DNA from: Desulfomonile tiedjei DSM 6799
GTDB taxonomy: Bacteria > Desulfobacterota > Desulfomonilia > Desulfomonilales > Desulfomonilaceae
Reading direction: 5' to 3'
Length of the DNA: 64,000 bases
Assembly (NCBI RefSeq): GCF_000266945.1
Contig: NC_018025.1
Location: 6,328,001 to 6,392,000 of the forward strand
The stretch's first letter is position 1. Every line of letters begins with the position of its first letter. Of the stretch, positions 35,661 through 44,719 are shown piece by piece. A program made the position numbers and the translations under genes. The notes under the pieces are model-generated. The model ran no database searches. It was given only the letters and a program-made list of their open reading frames with translations, and was not told the DNA's origin.

Positions 35661-36638
35661 TTATTCGCTCACCCGTATTCTGGGGTCTGCCATTGAGTAC
35701 ATAAGATCCGCGAGCAAGTTCCCCAGGAGCGTAAGAACGGCTCCGATCACGAGAATCCCCATTACACTTGGATAATCTCTCATCATAACGGATTGATAGA
35801 ACAACTGACCCATTCCGGGTATGGCAAAGATCGTCTCGGCTATGACACTTCCTCCAATGAGACCCGGGATTGATAATCCGAGAATAGTAATCACCGGCAG
35901 AAGCGCATTCCTTAGGGCATGCTTGAAAATGACTGTCCGTTCATCAAGTCCCTTGGCCCGCGCAGTGGTAATGTAATCCTGCCGAATGACTTCCAGCATA
36001 TTGGATCGCATGTACCGGCTCATCCCCGCAAGTCCGCTGAATGCAGACACAAATACTGGAAGGATGAGGTGTTTTGAAAAATCGAGTACCTGTCCTACGG
36101 ATGACAGCTCTGTATAATTCAGCGATCTCAAACCGGAAATGGGCAGTATATTTAGCTGGACTCCAAACAGGATCATAAGCAGCAAGGCAAGCCAAAAGCT
36201 TGGCGTGGCAAATCCCAAAAACACGAAGAGCGTGGTAAATCTGTCAAAAAGAGAGTTCCGCTTTACCGCAGACATTACCCCTATTGGAACGGCAACAATG
36301 AGAATGACGCTCAGAGAAAGAACGTTTATCAGGATCGTTATGGGGATACGCTCGGCAATCTTATCGATCACCGGTCTGCTATCCGGAGCGAAGGAACGTC
36401 CGAAATCCAGCACTACGATATTCTTCAGCCATTTGCCGTATTGCACGTACCAGGGCTGGTCAAGTCCATAATGGGCTCGTATCCGCTTGATGGCTTCTTC
36501 ATTCATATTGGGATTGAGATCCGTCACGAGGCTGGTCGGATCTCCGGGTGCCATCTTCATTACGCCGAATGAAATAATCGTGATTCCCAAAAGAACAGGA
36601 ATCATCAAGACAAGGCGCTTGGCTATATAAGAAATCAT
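35661..36638 (-). CDS. Peptide/nickel-type ABC transporter permease (DppB-like)
   Basis: A 325-residue permease with six membrane helices. It has the DppB N-terminal pattern ([27 protein letters not shown]), the periplasmic [21 protein letters not shown] segment and the EAA loop [35 protein letters not shown] lies before the ATG, six bases after the binding protein stop. Forms a heterodimer with the DppC-like protein. Confidence 0.92.
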
Positions 36639-36644
36639 GTCACC

Positions 36645-38288
36645 TCAAGGCTCGATCGTATATTTCTGCAACTGTTTCGGCACATACCATTTTATGAAAT
36701 TGTATCCGATTCCTATCGGAGCTGGATCTATACCCCGAAAACGGGAGCTTATGATGGGAAGCGCCTGCTGAACATACAAGAACGTGTAGGGCTGGTCTTC
36801 CGCAACTATCTCCTGAAATTTGTCGTAGTATTTTTTCCGCTCTTCCGGATCGTACACCGATGCTCCCTGCTCCAGAAGTGTATCTACTTCGGGATTATTG
36901 TAACTGACAAAATTCAGCTCGTTCTCGCCGGTTTTTTTGGAACTCCAGATGTCGATCTGGTTCGGATCGATGCCGATACCCCAGCCGAGCAGGCACGCTT
37001 CGAAGTTGCGTTTATTGATAAAATTCTTGAGAAATGCAGCCCACTCGATAACGCGGATCTTCACGTCTATGCCGATTTTTTTCAAATCACTCTGGATGAT
37101 TGTCGCTGTATTCTTTCGAAGCTCGTTTCCCTGATTGGTAATAATCGTGAACTCGAAAGGTTTTCCATCTTTCTGCATAACACCGTTTTCCAGTTTCCAG
37201 CCTGCCTCTGCAAGCAACCGTTTGGCGCCTTCAGGATCGTACGGATACTTTTTGACATTGTGGTTGTACCACATAGTGTCGGGTTTATACGGCGCATTCG
37301 TCACTTGACCCAATCCCAGGAGAACGCCCTGGACGATGCTCTCCCTGTTCATGGCCATGGTCAGCGCCTGTCTGACTCTTTTGTCCTCAAATTTCCAGTC
37401 CCGAAGGTTGTACCCGAGATAGGTGTAACTGAATGTCAAGTATTCGTATTTCTTGAAATTGTCTTTGAACCATTGGGTATCGGTCTGTCTCTTGTACTGA
37501 AGTGGAGTCAATCCCATTTGATCCAATCTTCCGGCTTTCAACTCAAGAAACATGGTTGCAAGGTCAGGGATAGTTCGGGTGAGCACTCGATCGATATAAG
37601 GCCGGCCTTCAAAATATTTGTGATAACTATCCACTATAATTTTTTCGCCGGTCACCCATTCCTTGAACCGATACGGACCGGTCCCCACAGGATCCCTTTT
37701 CAAAGGACTCTGAGTTACGTCCTTGCCTTCCAGGAGATGTCTCGGATGGATTGCCTGGCCCCAGGAGCCCAGAGCGGGCGCGTACGGCTTATCGTAGGTC
37801 ACTTCGATTGTATGATCGTCGATGACATGAAATTCCTTTACTTTTAAGAAATCCGTTGCATAGGCCGTGGGCGTTTTAGGATCGATATAGAGCTTGTACG
37901 TGAACTCCACATCTTTGGCGGTGAACGGAGTTCCATCCTGCCAGAGCACGTCTTTTTTCAGAAAAAACTTGATCTTGAGCTTGTCTTCGGAAATCTCCCA
38001 TTTTTCGGCAAGATCGCCGGTAAGTAAGATATCTTTATCGTACTTTACGAGACCATTGTAAATAAGTCCGGTTATATCGAAGCTGGCTGAATCCGATGCA
38101 AGAACCGGGAGGAGCACCGAAGCGTCTCCGATGCTGCCCCTGACTATCATGTCACCGTATGCGGGCTTTCCTTCGTCCGCGACCGTATTCTTGACCGAAC
38201 CGGTCGATGGACTGGAATTGTTCGATCCACATGCGGACATGGCAAACATAAGTGCCAGGAGTACAAGAAACCGTGATAAGTTGTTCAT
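36645..38288 (-). CDS. Periplasmic solute-binding lipoprotein, peptide type (SBP_bac_5)
   Basis: A 547-residue binding protein. The lipoprotein signal is MNNLSRFLVLLALMF then AMSAC, with Cys20 as the lipidated residue; Met at -3 of the lipobox is a little unusual. The mature part has the family signature WEISEDKLKIKFFLKKDVLWQ, the hinge strands with LTMAMNRESIVQGVLLG and a long C-terminal lobe. Start 38288 has GAAGGAAA before it; an in-frame ATG 78 bases earlier would put 26 extra residues ahead of the signal. Ligands of the family include peptides, nickel, sugars and opines; this one cannot be assigned. First gene of an operon with two permeases. Confidence 0.9.
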   Translation of the reverse strand: MNNLSRFLVLLALMFAMSACGSNNSSPSTGSVKNTVADEGKPAYGDMIVRGSIGDASVLLPVLASDSASFDITGLIYNGLVKYDKDILLTGDLAEKWEISEDKLKIKFFLKKDVLWQDGTPFTAKDVEFTYKLYIDPKTPTAYATDFLKVKEFHVIDDHTIEVTYDKPYAPALGSWGQAIHPRHLLEGKDVTQSPLKRDPVGTGPYRFKEWVTGEKIIVDSYHKYFEGRPYIDRVLTRTIPDLATMFLELKAGRLDQMGLTPLQYKRQTDTQWFKDNFKKYEYLTFSYTYLGYNLRDWKFEDKRVRQALTMAMNRESIVQGVLLGLGQVTNAPYKPDTMWYNHNVKKYPYDPEGAKRLLAEAGWKLENGVMQKDGKPFEFTIITNQGNELRKNTATIIQSDLKKIGIDVKIRVIEWAAFLKNFINKRNFEACLLGWGIGIDPNQIDIWSSKKTGENELNFVSYNNPEVDTLLEQGASVYDPEERKKYYDKFQEIVAEDQPYTFLYVQQALPIISSRFRGIDPAPIGIGYNFIKWYVPKQLQKYTIEP

Positions 38289-38438
38289 AAATTTCCTTCG
38301 GTCGCATATGAGGAGATTTTTCAGCCCCCGTTTCGAGAATATAGTAAAAATACGAAAATCCGGCAAGAGGTCCTCGTTTGTGTCATCTTTGGCACGTTCA
38401 TCTCAACGGTCTTGCAGGAGTTCTGTTGAATTGCTAAG

Positions 38439-38828
38439 TTGAGTTCATCTTACGGTGATGGGGTGATCTTGCCTCCGAGCGCACTGCAAGAGAATGAGCA
38501 AAGGGGAAAAGGGTTGGAGGAAAAAGATCTTTCTGAAAAGCAGCGTGAATGGCTTGAAGCATCAAGGAAGATAGGCCGCGTGTCCATGACAAAGACAGAG
38601 CGTCTCTTGCTTGAACGTCTGTACAAAGAAATGCTTCCTCATGAGCAGCAGGATCTGCAACAATTCATCCAGGACAAGTACGGTAAAAAGCCCGAAGAAT
38701 CCGGGGAAGAAAAACAGACGGAAGACGATCCTATTGAACGCATGATGCAGAAAACGTGGTCGATCCCGTCGGAAAAATTCAGATCTGCACTGGCGAAAAC
38801 CCAACCCTCGAGGCCTCCGAGAAAATGA
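38439..38828 (+). CDS. Small hydrophilic protein, function unknown
   Basis: About 129 residues if read from the TTG at 38439; a GTG at 38463 is the next candidate and neither has a strong ribosome site. The protein is highly charged, rich in Glu, Lys and Gln, with a predicted helical stretch LSEKQREWLEASRKIGRVSM and ERLLLERLYKEMLPHEQQ, and no membrane segment or cysteine. No family recognised. It is divergent from the peptide ABC operon and precedes serS by about 275 bases with a terminator between. Confidence 0.5.
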   Translation: MSSSYGDGVILPPSALQENEQRGKGLEEKDLSEKQREWLEASRKIGRVSMTKTERLLLERLYKEMLPHEQQDLQQFIQDKYGKKPEESGEEKQTEDDPIERMMQKTWSIPSEKFRSALAKTQPSRPPRK

Positions 38829-38916
38829 ATCCTTGCTTTTTGAAAAGATGGACGCGGCAGATTCTGTCATCGGTTTACCCTGAACAGGATTGCATGCCTG
38901 ATACGAATTTGCATTC

Positions 38917-38964
38917 AAAATCCCTCCATTCCCCCCTTTATAAAGGGGAGTTAGAGGGGATTTT
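38917..38964 (+). terminator. Hairpin with T-run downstream of the small hydrophilic gene
   Basis: AAAATCCC (38917) pairs with GGGGATTTT (38956-38964) and CCCCTTTA pairs with TAAAGGGG in between, giving a long stem with a loop and TTTT at the end. May also be a dispersed repeat. Confidence 0.6.
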
Positions 38965-39104
38965 CGTCCAATTTTGAAAGCAAATTGGCATGAATCATTG
39001 TTTTGAAAGATTTCTTTGCTTTATTTTCGTGGCAAGAACGAACAACTTCCTGCCACGTCTGAATGTGCAGAAGCTGCACAGGTGAGTTGAAAAGGAGCTC
39101 TCTT

Positions 39105-40382
39105 ATGCTTGATATCGCTTTCATTCGAAGCAATCCGGAGATCATTAAAGAAGGCATTCGCAAGAAAAGAATGCCTATGGATGTTGATGAACTCCTTTCT
39201 GTTGACGAGGAATTAAGGAAAACCCGCGCCGAAGTCGAGTCATTACGAGCCGATCGAAATCGGGTATCCAAAGATATTCCCAAGCTCATGGGTGAGGAGC
39301 GGGATCAAGCTGTGGAACTGGTAAAAAACGTCAAGGATCGTATGGCTCAAGCCGAGCCTCGGCTGAAGGAGCTTGAAGAGCGATTCGACCGCCTGATGCT
39401 CATGGTGCCGAATCCACCTCTCGACATGGTTCCTGAAGGCGATTCGGACGATGACAATGTTGAGGTCCGGCGGTTCGGTGAACCGACACAATTCGCTTTT
39501 CCTCCCAAAGATCATCTGGAACTGGCTGAGGGACTCGGAATTCTCGACATGCCCCGTGCCGTGAAAATCTCCGGTGCGCGCATGTACTTCCTGAAGAATG
39601 AAGGGGCGCTCCTGGAATTTGCGCTTTTCAGGTTTGCTCTGGATTTGCTCGTGTCCAAAGGTTTTCAGCCGATGATCGTTCCCCAGATCGTGCGACGCGA
39701 TGCGATGATCGGAACGGGGTTTTTTCCGTTGGGCGAGGAAGACACTTTCTTCATAGAAAAGGATCAGCTTTATCTTGTGGGGACTTCGGAAGTGCCATTG
39801 GTCTCCTATCACATGGACGAAATCCTCAATGAAAAAGAGTTGCCGAAGCACTATTGCGGATATTCTTCCTGCTTCAGGCGAGAGGCCGGTTCATACGGGA
39901 GAGACACACGCGGCTTTTACCGACTCCATCAATTCAACAAAGTGGAACAAATAGCCATCTGTGTAAACGATCCGGAAGTCTCCATGAAAGAGCATTATTT
40001 GCTCCTTGGAAACTCCGAGGAGTTGATGCGGTCGCTCGGTCTGCCGCACAGAGTGGCTCTTGCGTGCGGAGCCGAAATCGGCCAGGGACAAGTCTTGAAA
40101 CACGAGATCGAGACATGGATGCCGAGCAGGAATACGTATTCCGAGACGCACTCATGCTCGAGCCTGCATGAATTTCAGGCCCGGAGGCTCCGTCTACGCT
40201 GGCGTGGCAAGAACGGCAAAACTCATTATTGTCACACGCTCAACAATACGGCAATTGCATCTCCGAGAATATTCATTCCGATCCTTGAGAATTTTCAAAA
40301 CGAGGACGGCAGTGTTACCATTCCTGAAGTGCTTCGCCCTTATATGAACGGCATGGAACGAATCGAGCCCAAATCCAAATAA
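39105..40382 (+). CDS. serS: Seryl-tRNA synthetase (divergent motif 3)
   Basis: A 425-residue class II synthetase, full family length. Residues 1-100 form the tRNA-binding coiled coil (ELRKTRAEVESLRADRNRVSK). The core has the TxE serine-binding motif as GTSEVPLV, motif 2 CFRREAGSYGRDTRGFYRLH, and HTLNNTAIASPRIFIPILEN in place of the usual motif 3 (GLAxGRTxxAILEN): the glycine before the Arg is replaced by Ser-Pro while the Arg remains. The segment before WMPSRNTYSETHSCSS also departs from the common TGDxGFAAxKTYDLE pattern. It likely charges tRNA-Ser; whether it is the housekeeping copy cannot be told here. AAGGAG lies seven bases before the ATG. Monocistronic, ending at a strong terminator. 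Confidence 0.9.
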   Translation: MLDIAFIRSNPEIIKEGIRKKRMPMDVDELLSVDEELRKTRAEVESLRADRNRVSKDIPKLMGEERDQAVELVKNVKDRMAQAEPRLKELEERFDRLMLMVPNPPLDMVPEGDSDDDNVEVRRFGEPTQFAFPPKDHLELAEGLGILDMPRAVKISGARMYFLKNEGALLEFALFRFALDLLVSKGFQPMIVPQIVRRDAMIGTGFFPLGEEDTFFIEKDQLYLVGTSEVPLVSYHMDEILNEKELPKHYCGYSSCFRREAGSYGRDTRGFYRLHQFNKVEQIAICVNDPEVSMKEHYLLLGNSEELMRSLGLPHRVALACGAEIGQGQVLKHEIETWMPSRNTYSETHSCSSLHEFQARRLRLRWRGKNGKTHYCHTLNNTAIASPRIFIPILENFQNEDGSVTIPEVLRPYMNGMERIEPKSK

Positions 40383-40402
40383 TCTGCAGCCAAAAAGGTA
40401 AA

Positions 40403-40443
40403 ATCGGGGAGAAATTTCTTGTAAGAAGTTCCTCCCCGATTTT
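40403..40443 (+). terminator. Terminator of serS
   Basis: ATCGGGGA (40403-40410) pairs with TCCCCGAT (40433-40440), with an inner TTTCTT/AAGAA stem, followed by TTTT. Resembles the family C palindromes. Confidence 0.75.
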
Positions 40444-40492
40444 CCTTCTTGATTGCGTAATCACATCACAGTTTACCTATGGGGTTTGTCAC

Positions 40493-41359
40493 ATGGCATT
40501 AAAGATGGGGTGGCTTTCAACCGGCCGTGATCCTGCTGCACGGAATCTTCTCCAAACGGTTTACGAAGATATAGCGAAGAACAATATTCCGGCATCTATT
40601 GAATGGGTTTTTTGCCACCGCGAGACCGGTGATGCGCCTCTCAGTGAAGAGTATCGCCAGCGAGAGCTCTTCTTCGATCTCGCTGCAGGTTTCAATATAC
40701 CTGTCGCGACTCTATCGCATCTTCGAGTTGCTCCGGACCTTCGGAAACGAGGTATTGCAGAGAGTCCTTCCGCAGCAGAAGCTTCCCCTGCTCTAGAAGA
40801 ATGGCGCAACCTGTTCGGTCAGGAAGTCATGAAGGTCATCCGGATGCTCCCCCCGGTAGATATCGTGATAATGGCCGGGTACATGCTCATTATTGGCGAC
40901 CCCGAGTTGGAAGGCATGGTGCTCGTGAATGTCCACCCGGCGCTTCCCTGGGGACCTCGCGGAACATGGCAGGAGGTCATCCATCAGCTCATTGCAGAAA
41001 ATGCGGAAGAGCAGGGCATCATGGTTCATGTGGTCACCAAAACCCTGGACCGCGGACCGGTCATCTCGTACTGCAGATTTCCGATAAAGGGAGCCCAATG
41101 GGATCCTCTTTGGGATGCGTGGCACAATGAGATTAAACCTGAATCTACTCGTGAAGAGCGTGAAGCTCATCCATTGTTCCTGAAAATACGGGCCGAAGGA
41201 GAGATTCGGGAACTCCCGCTGCTGCGATCCGCTATCCGGGAAATCGCGTATGGAAATATTACTATCCGCGATAAGCGAATCCGGGTGGGGGGAATGGCTC
41301 AGGAAAACGGTGTGGATCTGACGGAAACCATAAGCAAGATCGTTTTTCAGGAAAAGTGA
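40493..41359 (+). CDS. Formyltransferase-like protein (PurN/Fmt fold)
   Basis: A 288-residue protein with the formyl transferase N-terminal fold: VDIVIMAGYMLIIGDPELEG, then VLVNVHPALPWGPRGTWQEV with the catalytic His-Pro region, and the late Asp in VTKTLDRGPVISYC. These residues match glycinamide ribonucleotide formyltransferase (PurN), which takes formyl from 10-formyltetrahydrofolate. The C-terminal 80 residues (EREAHPLFLKIRAEGEIREL) are longer than in PurN, so it may serve another pathway. The start lacks a strong ribosome site. It lies about 110 bases after serS, beyond the serS terminator. Confidence 0.75.
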   Translation: MALKMGWLSTGRDPAARNLLQTVYEDIAKNNIPASIEWVFCHRETGDAPLSEEYRQRELFFDLAAGFNIPVATLSHLRVAPDLRKRGIAESPSAAEASPALEEWRNLFGQEVMKVIRMLPPVDIVIMAGYMLIIGDPELEGMVLVNVHPALPWGPRGTWQEVIHQLIAENAEEQGIMVHVVTKTLDRGPVISYCRFPIKGAQWDPLWDAWHNEIKPESTREEREAHPLFLKIRAEGEIRELPLLRSAIREIAYGNITIRDKRIRVGGMAQENGVDLTETISKIVFQEK

Positions 41360-41370
41360 GTTCGCGAACC

Positions 41371-41490
41371 TCTCGCTGCCGGTCCATTCTGTCGATATTA
41401 TTGATTATATTGAAGATGTGCCGGCACGGAGGCACGGCACCCACCAATACACCTATCCCTCAATCGAACATTAGTTTTGCCAATTCCTAT
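41371..41490. repeat. Family A repeat downstream of the formyltransferase-like gene
   Basis: Runs TCGCTGCCGGTCCATTCTGT, then ATTATATTGAAGATGTGCC, the GCACGGAGGCACGGCACC core (41425-41442) and a degraded right end. It lacks the left half, like a cleaved copy. Confidence 0.8.
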
Positions 41491-41519
41491 AAGTTAGATC
41501 CAACACTACCGATTTTACC

Positions 41520-41954
41520 CTATGTAGTGTCACCGTATTTTGCCTGCTTTTCCGAAGCCCTGCTGTTGAATCGTATCGCATCGATCACGAATCTTTCGTG
41601 GGTACCTTCGGAAATAGAATCCACTCCATCTTCGGCTGAAAAAGAAAAGACCAGTTTCCGGCCCTCTACTTGCTCCAATTTCCCATGAATTGTTACGAGG
41701 AGCCCCGGAGGTGTAGCCGCAGAATGAGTCAATGTGATGCCAGTGCCGACCGTCTGCTCTTCCGGCCAATCAATGTGAGGATTGATTGCTCGTATGCAGG
41801 CCCATTCAACTAAGCCCACCATAAAGCCGGTTGCCAATACCTTCGGCATGACCTGGAATTCAGATGATTCAGGAAACAAATGGGGAACCGTCTTGTTATC
41901 CGGAACCATGAATCTGAACCGAAACGTCAACCCTGGCTGCAAGGATGATTTCAT
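41520..41954 (-). CDS. FlK-like hot-dog thioesterase
   Basis: A 144-residue hot-dog protein of the fluoroacetyl-CoA thioesterase type. With the start at 41954 (GAGGAACGG just before), Thr42, Glu50 and His77 fall where the FlK catalytic Thr42, Glu50 and His76 lie (MPKVLATGFMVGLVEW, then GTGITLTHSAATPPG). Later EGRKLVFSFSAEDGVDSISE and GTHERFVID are also family-typical. Most relatives outside Streptomyces are general acyl-CoA thioesterases, so fluoroacetate resistance is only one possibility. It is divergent from the LysR regulator, which probably controls it, and near a short-chain fatty acid transporter. Confidence 0.82.
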   Translation of the reverse strand: MKSSLQPGLTFRFRFMVPDNKTVPHLFPESSEFQVMPKVLATGFMVGLVEWACIRAINPHIDWPEEQTVGTGITLTHSAATPPGLLVTIHGKLEQVEGRKLVFSFSAEDGVDSISEGTHERFVIDAIRFNSRASEKQAKYGDTT

Positions 41955-42048
41955 TCCGTTCCTCACACTCGAGAAAATTTTTCCATATTCCGATCCATAT
42001 TACTAAATGGTATATTCATTCATCAAATTCATAAACGGCATATTATTT

Positions 42049-42063
42049 ATAAGGAAATCTTAT
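42049..42063. promoter_or_regulatory. Candidate LysR-type operator
   Basis: ATAAG-GAAAT-CTTAT is a perfect palindrome with the T-N11-A geometry favoured by LysR regulators, in the intergenic region between the thioesterase and lysR-like genes and only a few bases before the regulator start. Position suits autorepression. AT-rich context makes chance possible. Confidence 0.45.
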
Positions 42064-42067
42064 CAAA

Positions 42068-42970
42068 ATGGAGTGGCAGCAAATCATAGGATTCTATCAT
42101 GTTGCCCGACTTGGCAGCTTCACCAGAGCCGCTGAAGCCACATTTCGCACTCAACCCGCATTGAGCCAGCAAGTAAGTGCCCTTGAAAAGGAGCTTGGCT
42201 GCATACTTATCGAGAGGATTGGAAGACAGAAGCTCCGGCTCACCGAAGCAGGAATGGAATTCTTCAAATACGCGGAAGAAGTCCTGAACAAGTATGATTC
42301 GTTCCTCGAAGACTTACAGGATCTTCAAGGAGTCCGGAAAGGAACGCTTACGGTCGCAGCGCCTTTCACTACGCTGTATCATCTGTTTCCACGGATCTTC
42401 CTGGAATATGCCGGCAAATTCCCGGAAGTACAGATAACTATACTCGATCGCCCTCAGAAAACGGTGATTGACCTCATTAAGGCCGGAGAGATTGATTTCG
42501 GATTCGTACTGGAATCAATGTTGCCTGCCGGTTTTGCATCCTGGCGATGGAAGAAAGTGAGCAGTGTGTTAATGGTCCCATCGGGTCACCCGCTCCTGGC
42601 CGAAAAACCGGTAACTCTGGACTCGGTAGTTCAACACCCTCTCATATTGCCTCCGAGAGGCTCACTGCATTCTCGCTTTTCGGAGGTGGAGGAACTTCTT
42701 CAGAAACAGGGCCTTTCGTACCGCGTGATTATGGAATCCTCCAATGTCGAGCTCAGTTCACTATACGTGGAAATGGGGCTTGGAGTATCTTTCGCCACTG
42801 TGGTAAATCGTGCTTCCATCTTGAAGGGTCGTAAAATCGAGTTCATACCTTTGGACCACTATTTCAAAGATGATTATGTGGTTGTCAGCGGAAGAAAAAA
42901 CAGAAGGCTTTCATCTCCCAAGAGCGAATTCTTGAATATGATCCTGAAGAAGCGCATTATGGAAACGTGA
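42068..42970 (+). CDS. LysR family transcriptional regulator
   Basis: A 300-residue regulator. The N-terminal winged helix-turn-helix is complete (FYHVARLGSFTRAAEATFRT, then QPALSQQVSALEKELG) with the linker helix after it, and the C-terminal effector domain follows from about residue 90 (GTLTVAAPFTTLYHLFPRIF). Family members respond to a small metabolite and often repress themselves while activating the divergent gene. Divergent from the thioesterase gene and convergent with the transporter gene at 43325-44719. Confidence 0.93.
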   Translation: MEWQQIIGFYHVARLGSFTRAAEATFRTQPALSQQVSALEKELGCILIERIGRQKLRLTEAGMEFFKYAEEVLNKYDSFLEDLQDLQGVRKGTLTVAAPFTTLYHLFPRIFLEYAGKFPEVQITILDRPQKTVIDLIKAGEIDFGFVLESMLPAGFASWRWKKVSSVLMVPSGHPLLAEKPVTLDSVVQHPLILPPRGSLHSRFSEVEELLQKQGLSYRVIMESSNVELSSLYVEMGLGVSFATVVNRASILKGRKIEFIPLDHYFKDDYVVVSGRKNRRLSSPKSEFLNMILKKRIMET

Positions 42971-43002
42971 TTTCCGAATAGAACTTCACGAAGCAATGCT
43001 CA

Positions 43003-43197
43003 GCAGCGTTATAGCGGTTATCGAAGGTCTTGACGGAATCCAATGCCTGCAATGGGAAGAATCAGTAGCGCCGGCGTCTCTGCCGGCGAGAACTGGCTGA
43101 TTTGTTTGGTGAATTGTTCGCCGGCACGGAGGCCGGTGCTACCGACTGCTGGGAGCTGCTCTTCACAATCCGTGATTACTTTCGACAATCGGTATAA
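43003..43197. repeat. Intact family A repeat (reference copy for the IS4 insertion)
   Basis: An uninterrupted unit: ATAGCGGTTATCGAAGG, GACGGAATCCAATGCCTGC, CGCCGGC-GTCTCT-GCCGGCG (43070-43089), CGCCGGCACGGAGGCCGGTG and ending in CACAATCCGTGATTAC, GACAATCGGTAT. Its complement matches 9618-9684 plus 11199-11325. CGTCTCTGCCGG at 43075-43086 is one base away from the IS110 target. Confidence 0.85.
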
Positions 43198-43324
43198 GCG
43201 ACCACAATAGTGTCGGAGTTGTTCGGAAAGAGTCCGACGAACACAGCGAAAAAAGCGGTTCGCGGAACCCTTTCCAAAATCGCTCGTATCAGATTCGGTG
43301 AAAGACGGTGAAGTCCCGATCTAC

Positions 43325-44719
43325 TCAGATCATTGGATATATGAGAAACGCCACTGACGTGATTGCAAGGAAATAGAGAAAAACCACCATTAACCATCCC
43401 ATAATTTCCCGGAATTCCAGTTTTGCTATGGCAAGCATGGCAATGGCCCAGAACGGCTGAATCATGTCCGTCATCATGTCTCCCCATGCATACGCCATGA
43501 CCGTCTTAGGAATACTGACTCCGAGCTCTTTCGCTGCGGGTATTATGAATGGTGCTGTTATGGCCCATTTGGAACCGCCCGAAGGAACGAGATAATTCTC
43601 AATCCCGGAGTACCAGTACACGATTAAGAGAAACGTTTTGGGATTGGATATGGATACCATCGCAGCGGTCAGGGCATTTCCTAATTCAGTGAATTTGAAT
43701 AATCCGAAGATTCCAGCGTAGAACGGGAACTGAATGACAACACCCCATACTGCTTTTCCTGCTTCTTCGCACGCTTTCAGGAACGTCCACGGTCGCCAGT
43801 GAAATAGTACTCCCAACATCAGAAAGAACAAATTGATATTATTCAGGTTAATGGATTTGGCAAAGCCGTTTTGATTGATTGTCCATGCAAGCCATATGAG
43901 TCCTGCTATAGAGACGATAAGGTTAAACCCCGGCCACCAGTTCAGCCAGTCGGAAGGCATCAGCTTGCCCGTGGGACGCTGGGGCGGCTCATACAGCTTT
44001 AACTCGTTGAGCAGTTCCGGTCTGATCTTATACGTGTTTTCAGGCCTTGGATGCATTAAACACATAAGAACCACAATGCTGATCACCATCAGAAGGACAA
44101 GGATAATGTTGAATCCGCTGAAAATAGTCTCGGAAGTAGGAATAGTGGCTTCAAGGATCTTTCCTTTGATGAGAAAATTATCTGGAGTATTAACCAGCAG
44201 TGTGGCCGACCCTGACAATCCCGAATGCCAGGTACACCCCAGCCCAAGATAAGCGGCCGCCACCATAAGCCTGTAATCCGTTTTGGGATTCCTTCTTATG
44301 AGGAACAAAGCAAAGACGGCGCTCCCTATAAGACTGAGACCCCAATGGAACCAAGCGCTTACCATCGAAAACAGACTCATCGCCAGAATTGCCTGCCACG
44401 GCTTGTCAGGATTGGGAAGATTTGAAAGACCGTCCAGCAGTTTCTTCACTGGAGGAGAGCATCCCAGTATGTACCCGGTCATAAGTATCAGGCACATCTG
44501 CATCCCGAATTCCAGAAGAGCCCAAAATCCTTTACCCCAGGCAAGCAGGGCACCCAAAGGGGTCGCTTTCCCAAAGATCAGCGCCAACGCGAATGCAATG
44601 AAATTCAGAATCCAAACAATTACCAAGGCGTCCGGAATCCACTTCTCGGACCATCGGGTCAGCCCATCCCCCCAGTTCTTGAGAAACTCGAAAGTAGAGG
44701 CATCGCTTTGAACAGCCAT
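43325..44719 (-). CDS. Short-chain fatty acid transporter (AtoE family)
   Basis: A 464-residue membrane protein with about 11 hydrophobic helices. The N-terminal segment LTRWSEKWIPDALVIVWILN, the loop SMVSAWFHWGLSLIGSAVFAL and the end region VPSGGSKWAITAPFIIPAA are typical of AtoE/TIGR00366 proteins, which carry short-chain fatty acids such as acetoacetate or butyrate. AAAGGAGG nine bases before the ATG. Close to the thioesterase and LysR genes, which suggests a shared role in short-chain acid metabolism. Transcribed alone. Confidence 0.9.
   Translation of the reverse strand: MAVQSDASTFEFLKNWGDGLTRWSEKWIPDALVIVWILNFIAFALALIFGKATPLGALLAWGKGFWALLEFGMQMCLILMTGYILGCSPPVKKLLDGLSNLPNPDKPWQAILAMSLFSMVSAWFHWGLSLIGSAVFALFLIRRNPKTDYRLMVAAAYLGLGCTWHSGLSGSATLLVNTPDNFLIKGKILEATIPTSETIFSGFNIILVLLMVISIVVLMCLMHPRPENTYKIRPELLNELKLYEPPQRPTGKLMPSDWLNWWPGFNLIVSIAGLIWLAWTINQNGFAKSINLNNINLFFLMLGVLFHWRPWTFLKACEEAGKAVWGVVIQFPFYAGIFGLFKFTELGNALTAAMVSISNPKTFLLIVYWYSGIENYLVPSGGSKWAITAPFIIPAAKELGVSIPKTVMAYAWGDMMTDMIQPFWAIAMLAIAKLEFREIMGWLMVVFLYFLAITSVAFLIYPMI

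Follow-up and report, generated by a model that had tools for sequence, protein, structure and literature searches.

The serS locus

The window (the whole 64-kb stretch of Desulfomonile tiedjei DNA that was analysed) contains a gene for seryl-tRNA synthetase (SerRS). The features of this locus are as follows.

38439-38828, + strand: 129-aa ORF just upstream of serS, unmatched in Pfam and NCBIfam at E 0.001
39092-39097, + strand: ribosome-binding site AAGGAG, read from the sequence, 7 nt 5' of the ATG at 39105
39105-40382, + strand: serS, seryl-tRNA synthetase of the Thermus type, 425 aa, by profile and alignment, the sole SerRS found in the genome
40400-40443, + strand: hairpin with perfect 12-bp arms, just 3' of serS (RNA fold z = -6.4)
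40493-41359, + strand: formyltransferase-like gene 3' of serS, with a PurN match below cut-off
41520-41966, - strand: fluoroacetyl-CoA thioesterase family FlK protein (Pfam PF22636, 95 bits)

The frame at 39105-40382 on the + strand translates as 425 codons with no internal stop. An alternative longer ORF starts at 39063, upstream of this ATG; the start at 39105 is preferred because of the AAGGAG that precedes it. The hairpin after the gene is a possible transcription terminator. It was not listed by a consensus terminator scan spanning 40400-40443, which gave one terminator-like site elsewhere (1.7 expected). An Rfam search of 38300-40600 up to E = 1 gave one match, to a microRNA family, which overlaps the hairpin on the minus strand. 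It scores 25 bits where the gathering threshold is 72 and is taken as chance. No tRNA genes were found in the 64-kb window.

The neighbours of serS in the interval 35661-44719 are a peptide-type ABC permease and a binding protein (both named by reading), the 129-aa ORF, the formyltransferase-like protein, the FlK-type thioesterase, a regulator of the LysR type and a transporter for short-chain fatty acids. The FlK-type gene lies near these last two. No inhibitor biosynthesis genes were seen in this interval. In each of the 15 Desulfomonile-clade loci (L006-L020) a homologue of the 129-aa ORF (44-55% identity) lies upstream of serS. None was found at 15 loci outside this set, some of which include little upstream DNA; the ORF possibly encodes a small family-specific protein. 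Downstream, three relatives examined have a PUA/methyltransferase gene after serS (L006 4352-5515, L016 4501-5679 and L019 4298-5470), a position occupied in the window by the formyltransferase-like gene. The L006 gene scores best in NCBIfam against 23S rRNA cytosine methyltransferases, though under the cut-off.

Domain content and predicted structure

The serS product matches the TIGR00414 serS profile with 450 bits (cut-off 301.65), residues 1-414 aligning to positions 1-418 of the 418 in the model, and the Pfam domains Seryl_tRNA_N and tRNA-synt_2b are both above their cut-offs. The N-terminal tRNA arm is matched by PF02403 (94.6 bits, residues 1-105) and contains long helices at residues 27-60 and 64-100 in an AlphaFold model. 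Judged by these matches, the protein is a full-length bacterial SerRS of the common type.

The AlphaFold model has a mean pLDDT of 91.5, and its sole segment below 50, residues 262-268, lies in the motif 2 loop. Foldseek with this model returned the Aquifex SerRS (2dq3, TM 0.93) first by E-value and the Thermus thermophilus SerRS (1sry, TM 0.94) second. The closest solved structure, by sequence as well as by Foldseek E-value, is the Aquifex protein, an enzyme with Gly before the motif 3 Arg (Gly-Arg), slightly ahead of T. thermophilus.

Active-site motifs

The motifs of the active site were located by alignment.

39777-39803, + strand: TxE loop VGTSEVPLV (Thr227, Glu229)
39867-39950, + strand: motif 2 region SCFRREAGSYGRDTRGFYRLHQFNKVEQ (Arg258, Glu260, Phe277, Glu281), conserved
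40062-40127, + strand: segment ACGAEIGQGQVLKHEIETWMPS, differing from its counterpart in Aquifex SerRS
40233-40298, + strand: motif 3 region HTLNNTAIASPRIFIPILENFQ, with Arg388 kept and Pro387 at a position that is Gly in the majority of rows examined

The first-pass annotation had reported that motif 3 is altered and lacks the Gly before its Arg, that the segment known as TGD is also changed, and that motif 2 and TxE are intact, and all of this is borne out by alignment with Aquifex 2dq3. Motif 3 reads TLNNTAIASPRIFIPILEN where TLNGSGLAVGRTxxAILEN is expected; NGSGLAVGRT of the Aquifex protein becomes NNTAIASPRI, with Pro in place of the Gly before Arg and Ser in place of the Val before that. 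The TGD segment reads CGAEIGQGQVLKHEIE. Motif 2 (CFRREAGSYGRDTRG...HQFNKVEQ) is unaltered, as is TxE, which is TSE. Across a 26-row alignment Thr227, Glu229, Arg258, Glu260, Phe277, Glu281 and Arg388 are all invariant, and the class II signature residues are present.

The SerRS of T. thermophilus (1sry, 1ser, 9qrp) has ETHSCSALLDWQARR at the stretch that corresponds in the alignment, together with ETHSCSAL. It resembles the window enzyme in being a full-length bacterial SerRS with the motif 3 TLNNTAxA[S/T]PRI and the ETHSCS strand, and differs from it in overall identity (about 41%), in a long branch between the two and in having Thr-Gly-Asp where the window has Gly-Ala-Glu. At 18 of 23 compared T. 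thermophilus positions the window SerRS is identical, including Pro385 (Pro387 here); the differences are at 272, 285, 353, 384 and 390. Fourteen positions, which we take to be the catalytic ones, are Thr225, Glu227, Arg256, Glu258, Arg271, Phe275, Lys277, Glu279, Glu345, Ser348, Cys349, Asn378, Thr380 and Arg386 in T. thermophilus numbering, and all 14 are among the 18 shared. The Gly-Arg enzymes, which include Aquifex 2dq3, E. coli 6r1m and most Desulfobacterota rows fetched, share family, fold, domain order and catalytic residues with the window SerRS but have NGSGxAxGR as motif 3, and the Aquifex protein also has EISSCS.

Over 112 rows, a tally of overlapping sets that includes two PDB rows, the residue before the motif 3 Arg is Gly in 67, Pro in 39, Ala in 3 and Ser in 3. 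The segment that is Gly-Ala-Glu in the window varies among 36 rows with Pro before Arg (Pro-Arg rows): TGE in 14, GAE in 8, SGE in 5, TGD in 3, SAE and GKE in 2 each, and GGE and TAE in 1 each. The ETHSCS strand also occurs outside the Pro-Arg rows, in two of 67 Gly-Arg rows. On these comparisons the Pro-Arg motif 3 is a second established natural form, already known from T. thermophilus, and not damage. A sequencing fault is ruled out, the same Ser-Pro-Arg (SPR) form being present in 17 of 17 serS genes of the family. The word altered is misleading as a label for an established natural form.

Class II SerRS-like paralogues exist, such as amino acid:carrier protein ligases. That the window protein is one of these, or another SerRS homologue no longer charging tRNA, is exceedingly improbable given the N-terminal tRNA-binding arm (PF02403), the retention of the catalytic positions and the failure of the searches to find another SerRS in this genome, whose completeness is rated at 99.99%.

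Copy number and distribution

This genome has two contigs and 6,527,027 bases in all, 6,500,104 of them in the larger contig. A protein search and a search with Seryl_tRNA_N (PF02403) each gave a single match, to one serS. TIGR00414 matched serS and, at 28 bits and far under the cut-off, a gene read as ThrRS. The remaining three PF00587 loci (L001, L002 and L004) are read from their translations as ThrRS, ProRS and HisRS. No second serS was found with any of these four queries. The first-pass annotation had offered a second SerRS with a special use as one of its two readings, which the count of one does not support; its other reading, that of a housekeeping type that has diverged in this lineage, is supported by that count and by the fixation of SPR in the sampled family.

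NCBI places D. tiedjei in Thermodesulfobacteriota, Desulfomonilia, Desulfomonilaceae, and family f1 of our genome set is taken as Desulfomonilaceae, the name being an assignment of ours. A serS above cut-off is present in 17 of this family's 18 genomes, the source of the 17 genes noted above; the remaining genome (G396, 82% complete) has none. Among the best 80 of 314 relatives, the nearest with a name is a draft assembly that carries the label Desulfomonile tiedjei, at 84% identity. In the sister family of the class, represented by 24 genomes, all 20 full-length serS genes fetched have Gly-Arg; of the other four genomes, one yields a serS fragment above cut-off and three yield no serS at that level.

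It had also been proposed at first pass that the motif would be ordinary if no other serS were present in the genome and the same motif ran through the whole phylum. No other serS was found. The motif is not phylum-wide: of the phylum's 395 genomes, 6 contain the DNA pattern for TLNNTxxA[ST]PR, namely G026 and five Desulfomonilaceae; 374 of the 395 had any match to the SerRS protein, and a reversed control pattern had none in the rows listed. It is instead family-wide and present in other phyla. Among the best 80 of 314 relatives the Pro-Arg type is found at loci of Bradymonadota/Myxococcota, Spirochaetota, Aminicenantes, Oscillospiraceae and Alicyclobacillaceae, and further groups are possible. 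Each of 13 Pro-Arg genomes searched from other groups has exactly one serS over cut-off, in every case SPR, and three further genomes of the Desulfomonile clade in that search agree. In the phylum of Lujinxingia the DNA pattern, matched genome-wide at any locus, is present in 13 of 57 genomes.

Two serS genes are over cut-off in one Desulfomonilaceae draft, G399 (85% complete, 5% contaminated). The extra gene (L129) has MLNGTAIATSR at its end, and in the tree it falls with two Saccharibacteria rows. Given the completeness and contamination of the draft, it is most likely on a stray contig and was not counted as evidence of duplication.

Off-type SerRS sequences were also seen elsewhere in the same phylum, in two genomes of family f73 (G167 and G393, loci L091 and L092). 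These have ETHSCSN and NGTAYAIGR and group with a Patescibacteria row (support 93). They are perhaps a separate replacement.

Phylogeny and probable gene replacement

A tree was made by quick search from 81 of the 136 rows extracted, with the motif 3 columns removed. The rows left out were duplicates, near-copies, surplus Clostridia (including L038) and 13 of 24 rows added later. One branch has the window, T. thermophilus and 32 other Pro-Arg rows on one side, with support of 90.8, which is below the starred level. In the same tree a 35-row set that includes one Paceibacterota row has support of 98 (starred). The branch of T. thermophilus is very long (1.89) and its composition is unlike that of the others, which makes its placement unsure.

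The ancestral Desulfobacterota SerRS could have been inherited vertically and its motif 3 mutated within Desulfomonilaceae. Pro before Arg has indeed arisen independently elsewhere: a gut Clostridia serS (L037, 3001-4278) whose motif 3 is of the Pro-Arg kind (LACPRAL) sits within the Gly-Arg clade. Without the motif columns, however, the family still groups with other phyla. When the Desulfomonile clade (19 rows) and the sister family (7 rows) were forced together, 266 log-likelihood units were lost (p-AU 4e-51), and common descent of the Desulfomonilaceae serS with that of the sister family is rejected under the model used. Identity points the same way. The window SerRS is only 38-41% identical to 20 sister-family rows, against 55-60% for eleven and 51-52% for three of 14 Pro-Arg rows (L021-L034) from Aminicenantes, Bradymonadota/Myxococcota, Oscillospiraceae, Alicyclobacillaceae, Spirochaetota and one deltaproteobacterial row. 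We consider vertical inheritance very unlikely.

The simplest account of these sequences is that serS was probably replaced horizontally in the ancestor of Desulfomonilaceae. At the 15 Desulfomonile-clade loci (L006-L020) the small upstream ORF is always kept, and the binding-protein gene is kept at 12; this retention of the upstream neighbours suggests that serS has probably stayed in place since its acquisition.

The change to Pro before Arg occurred more than once, and the tree needs two label changes. L038, a near relative of L037 that is absent from the tree, has the same LACPRAL motif.

Comparison with other divergent SerRS proteins

An alternative SerRS form that has spread horizontally is known in methanogens, where the so-called rare SerRS is regarded as equivalent in function (PMC3191353, PMC4427996). 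It differs from the window enzyme in its novel N-terminal region and zinc-dependent site (PMC4427996). The window SerRS is without this N-terminal region; it has the common-type domain (PF02403) and scores as a common-type SerRS (TIGR00414).

SerRS2/AbmK of an albomycin producer is likewise a bacterial SerRS that diverges from the housekeeping form of its host, and its gene, serS2/abmK, protects E. coli (PMC9032320). This is a precedent for the reading that the window SerRS was selected to resist a natural mimic of seryl-adenylate (albomycin or a nucleoside like it) and that its changed motif 3 keeps the inhibitor out. Moreover, published work names the residue before the motif 3 Arg as one that determines inhibitor selectivity (review PMC7916415). 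By its description, SerRS2/AbmK is a second copy within an antibiotic cluster, whereas the window serS is the sole copy found, with no inhibitor cluster among its neighbours at 35661-44719. Genomes of several groups also have the Pro-Arg enzyme as their one SerRS above cut-off. T. thermophilus SerRS, with a like motif, has been solved with tRNA(Ser) and a seryl-adenylate analogue (9qrp, by its title), and on this showing the Pro-Arg motif does not exclude such analogues. In addition, PMC7916415 describes the albomycin warhead as held by the Arg and Glu of motif 2, both intact here. The tolerance to a seryl-adenylate inhibitor suggested at first pass is hence unsupported, and we regard selection for such resistance as highly improbable in this gene.

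Role of the window SerRS

The gene most probably encodes an ordinary, sole housekeeping SerRS of the Thermus type that has replaced the ancestral serS; we put the probability of this reading at about 95%. A literature search for Desulfomonile tiedjei together with aminoacyl-tRNA synthetase found no papers.

As the sole and presumably essential SerRS, the enzyme would form Ser-AMP from Ser and ATP and then Ser-tRNA(Ser), and its N-terminal helical arm would read the long variable arm of tRNA(Ser). The enzyme would belong to a Thermus-type branch within the ordinary bacterial SerRS, in which NNTxxA[S/T]PR appears to replace NGSGxAxGR in motif 3 and ETHSCS to replace EISSCS in the strand of Glu347. 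The ancestor of Desulfomonilaceae would have received this branch horizontally and lost its ancestral Gly-Arg serS to it, a direction and time suggested by the tree and the identities.

Adenine contact in class II synthetases is made by the motif 3 Arg (PMC5919687). In the window enzyme too this Arg would stack on the adenine ring. The preceding residue, which is Gly in most bacteria, Thr in the human cytosolic enzyme and Pro in the window SerRS, would line only the rim of the adenine pocket. According to the review PMC7916415, the bacterial Gly opens a small pocket at adenine C2 that the human Thr closes, and C2-substituted seryl-sulfamoyl-adenosines exploit this bacterial pocket. By analogy with the human Thr, Pro at this position should close the C2 pocket. 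Natural 2-chloro-adenosine sulfamates occur (PMC12262901); the evidence gathered contains no link between these compounds and D. tiedjei.

A wider proposal is that Gly-Arg and Pro-Arg are functionally equivalent active-site forms of bacterial SerRS, swapped between phyla as whole genes, that Pro closes the C2 pocket and that Pro-Arg lineages are insensitive to C2-substituted adenylate mimics. We hold this only tentatively and think it rather unlikely as a whole.

The findings correct the impression given by comparison with E. coli-like SerRS: a motif that seems damaged on that comparison is the standard alternative in the T. thermophilus structures. They also present a clear case of an essential synthetase probably replaced across a whole family. 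The rule of Gly in bacteria and Thr in human is not universal, as the Gly that published SerRS inhibitors selective for bacteria depend on is Pro in several bacterial groups. If the wider proposal were true, plain adenylate mimics would still be bound by Pro-Arg SerRS, and all Desulfomonilaceae would be insensitive to synthetic C2-substituted mimics and perhaps to natural dealanylascamycin too.
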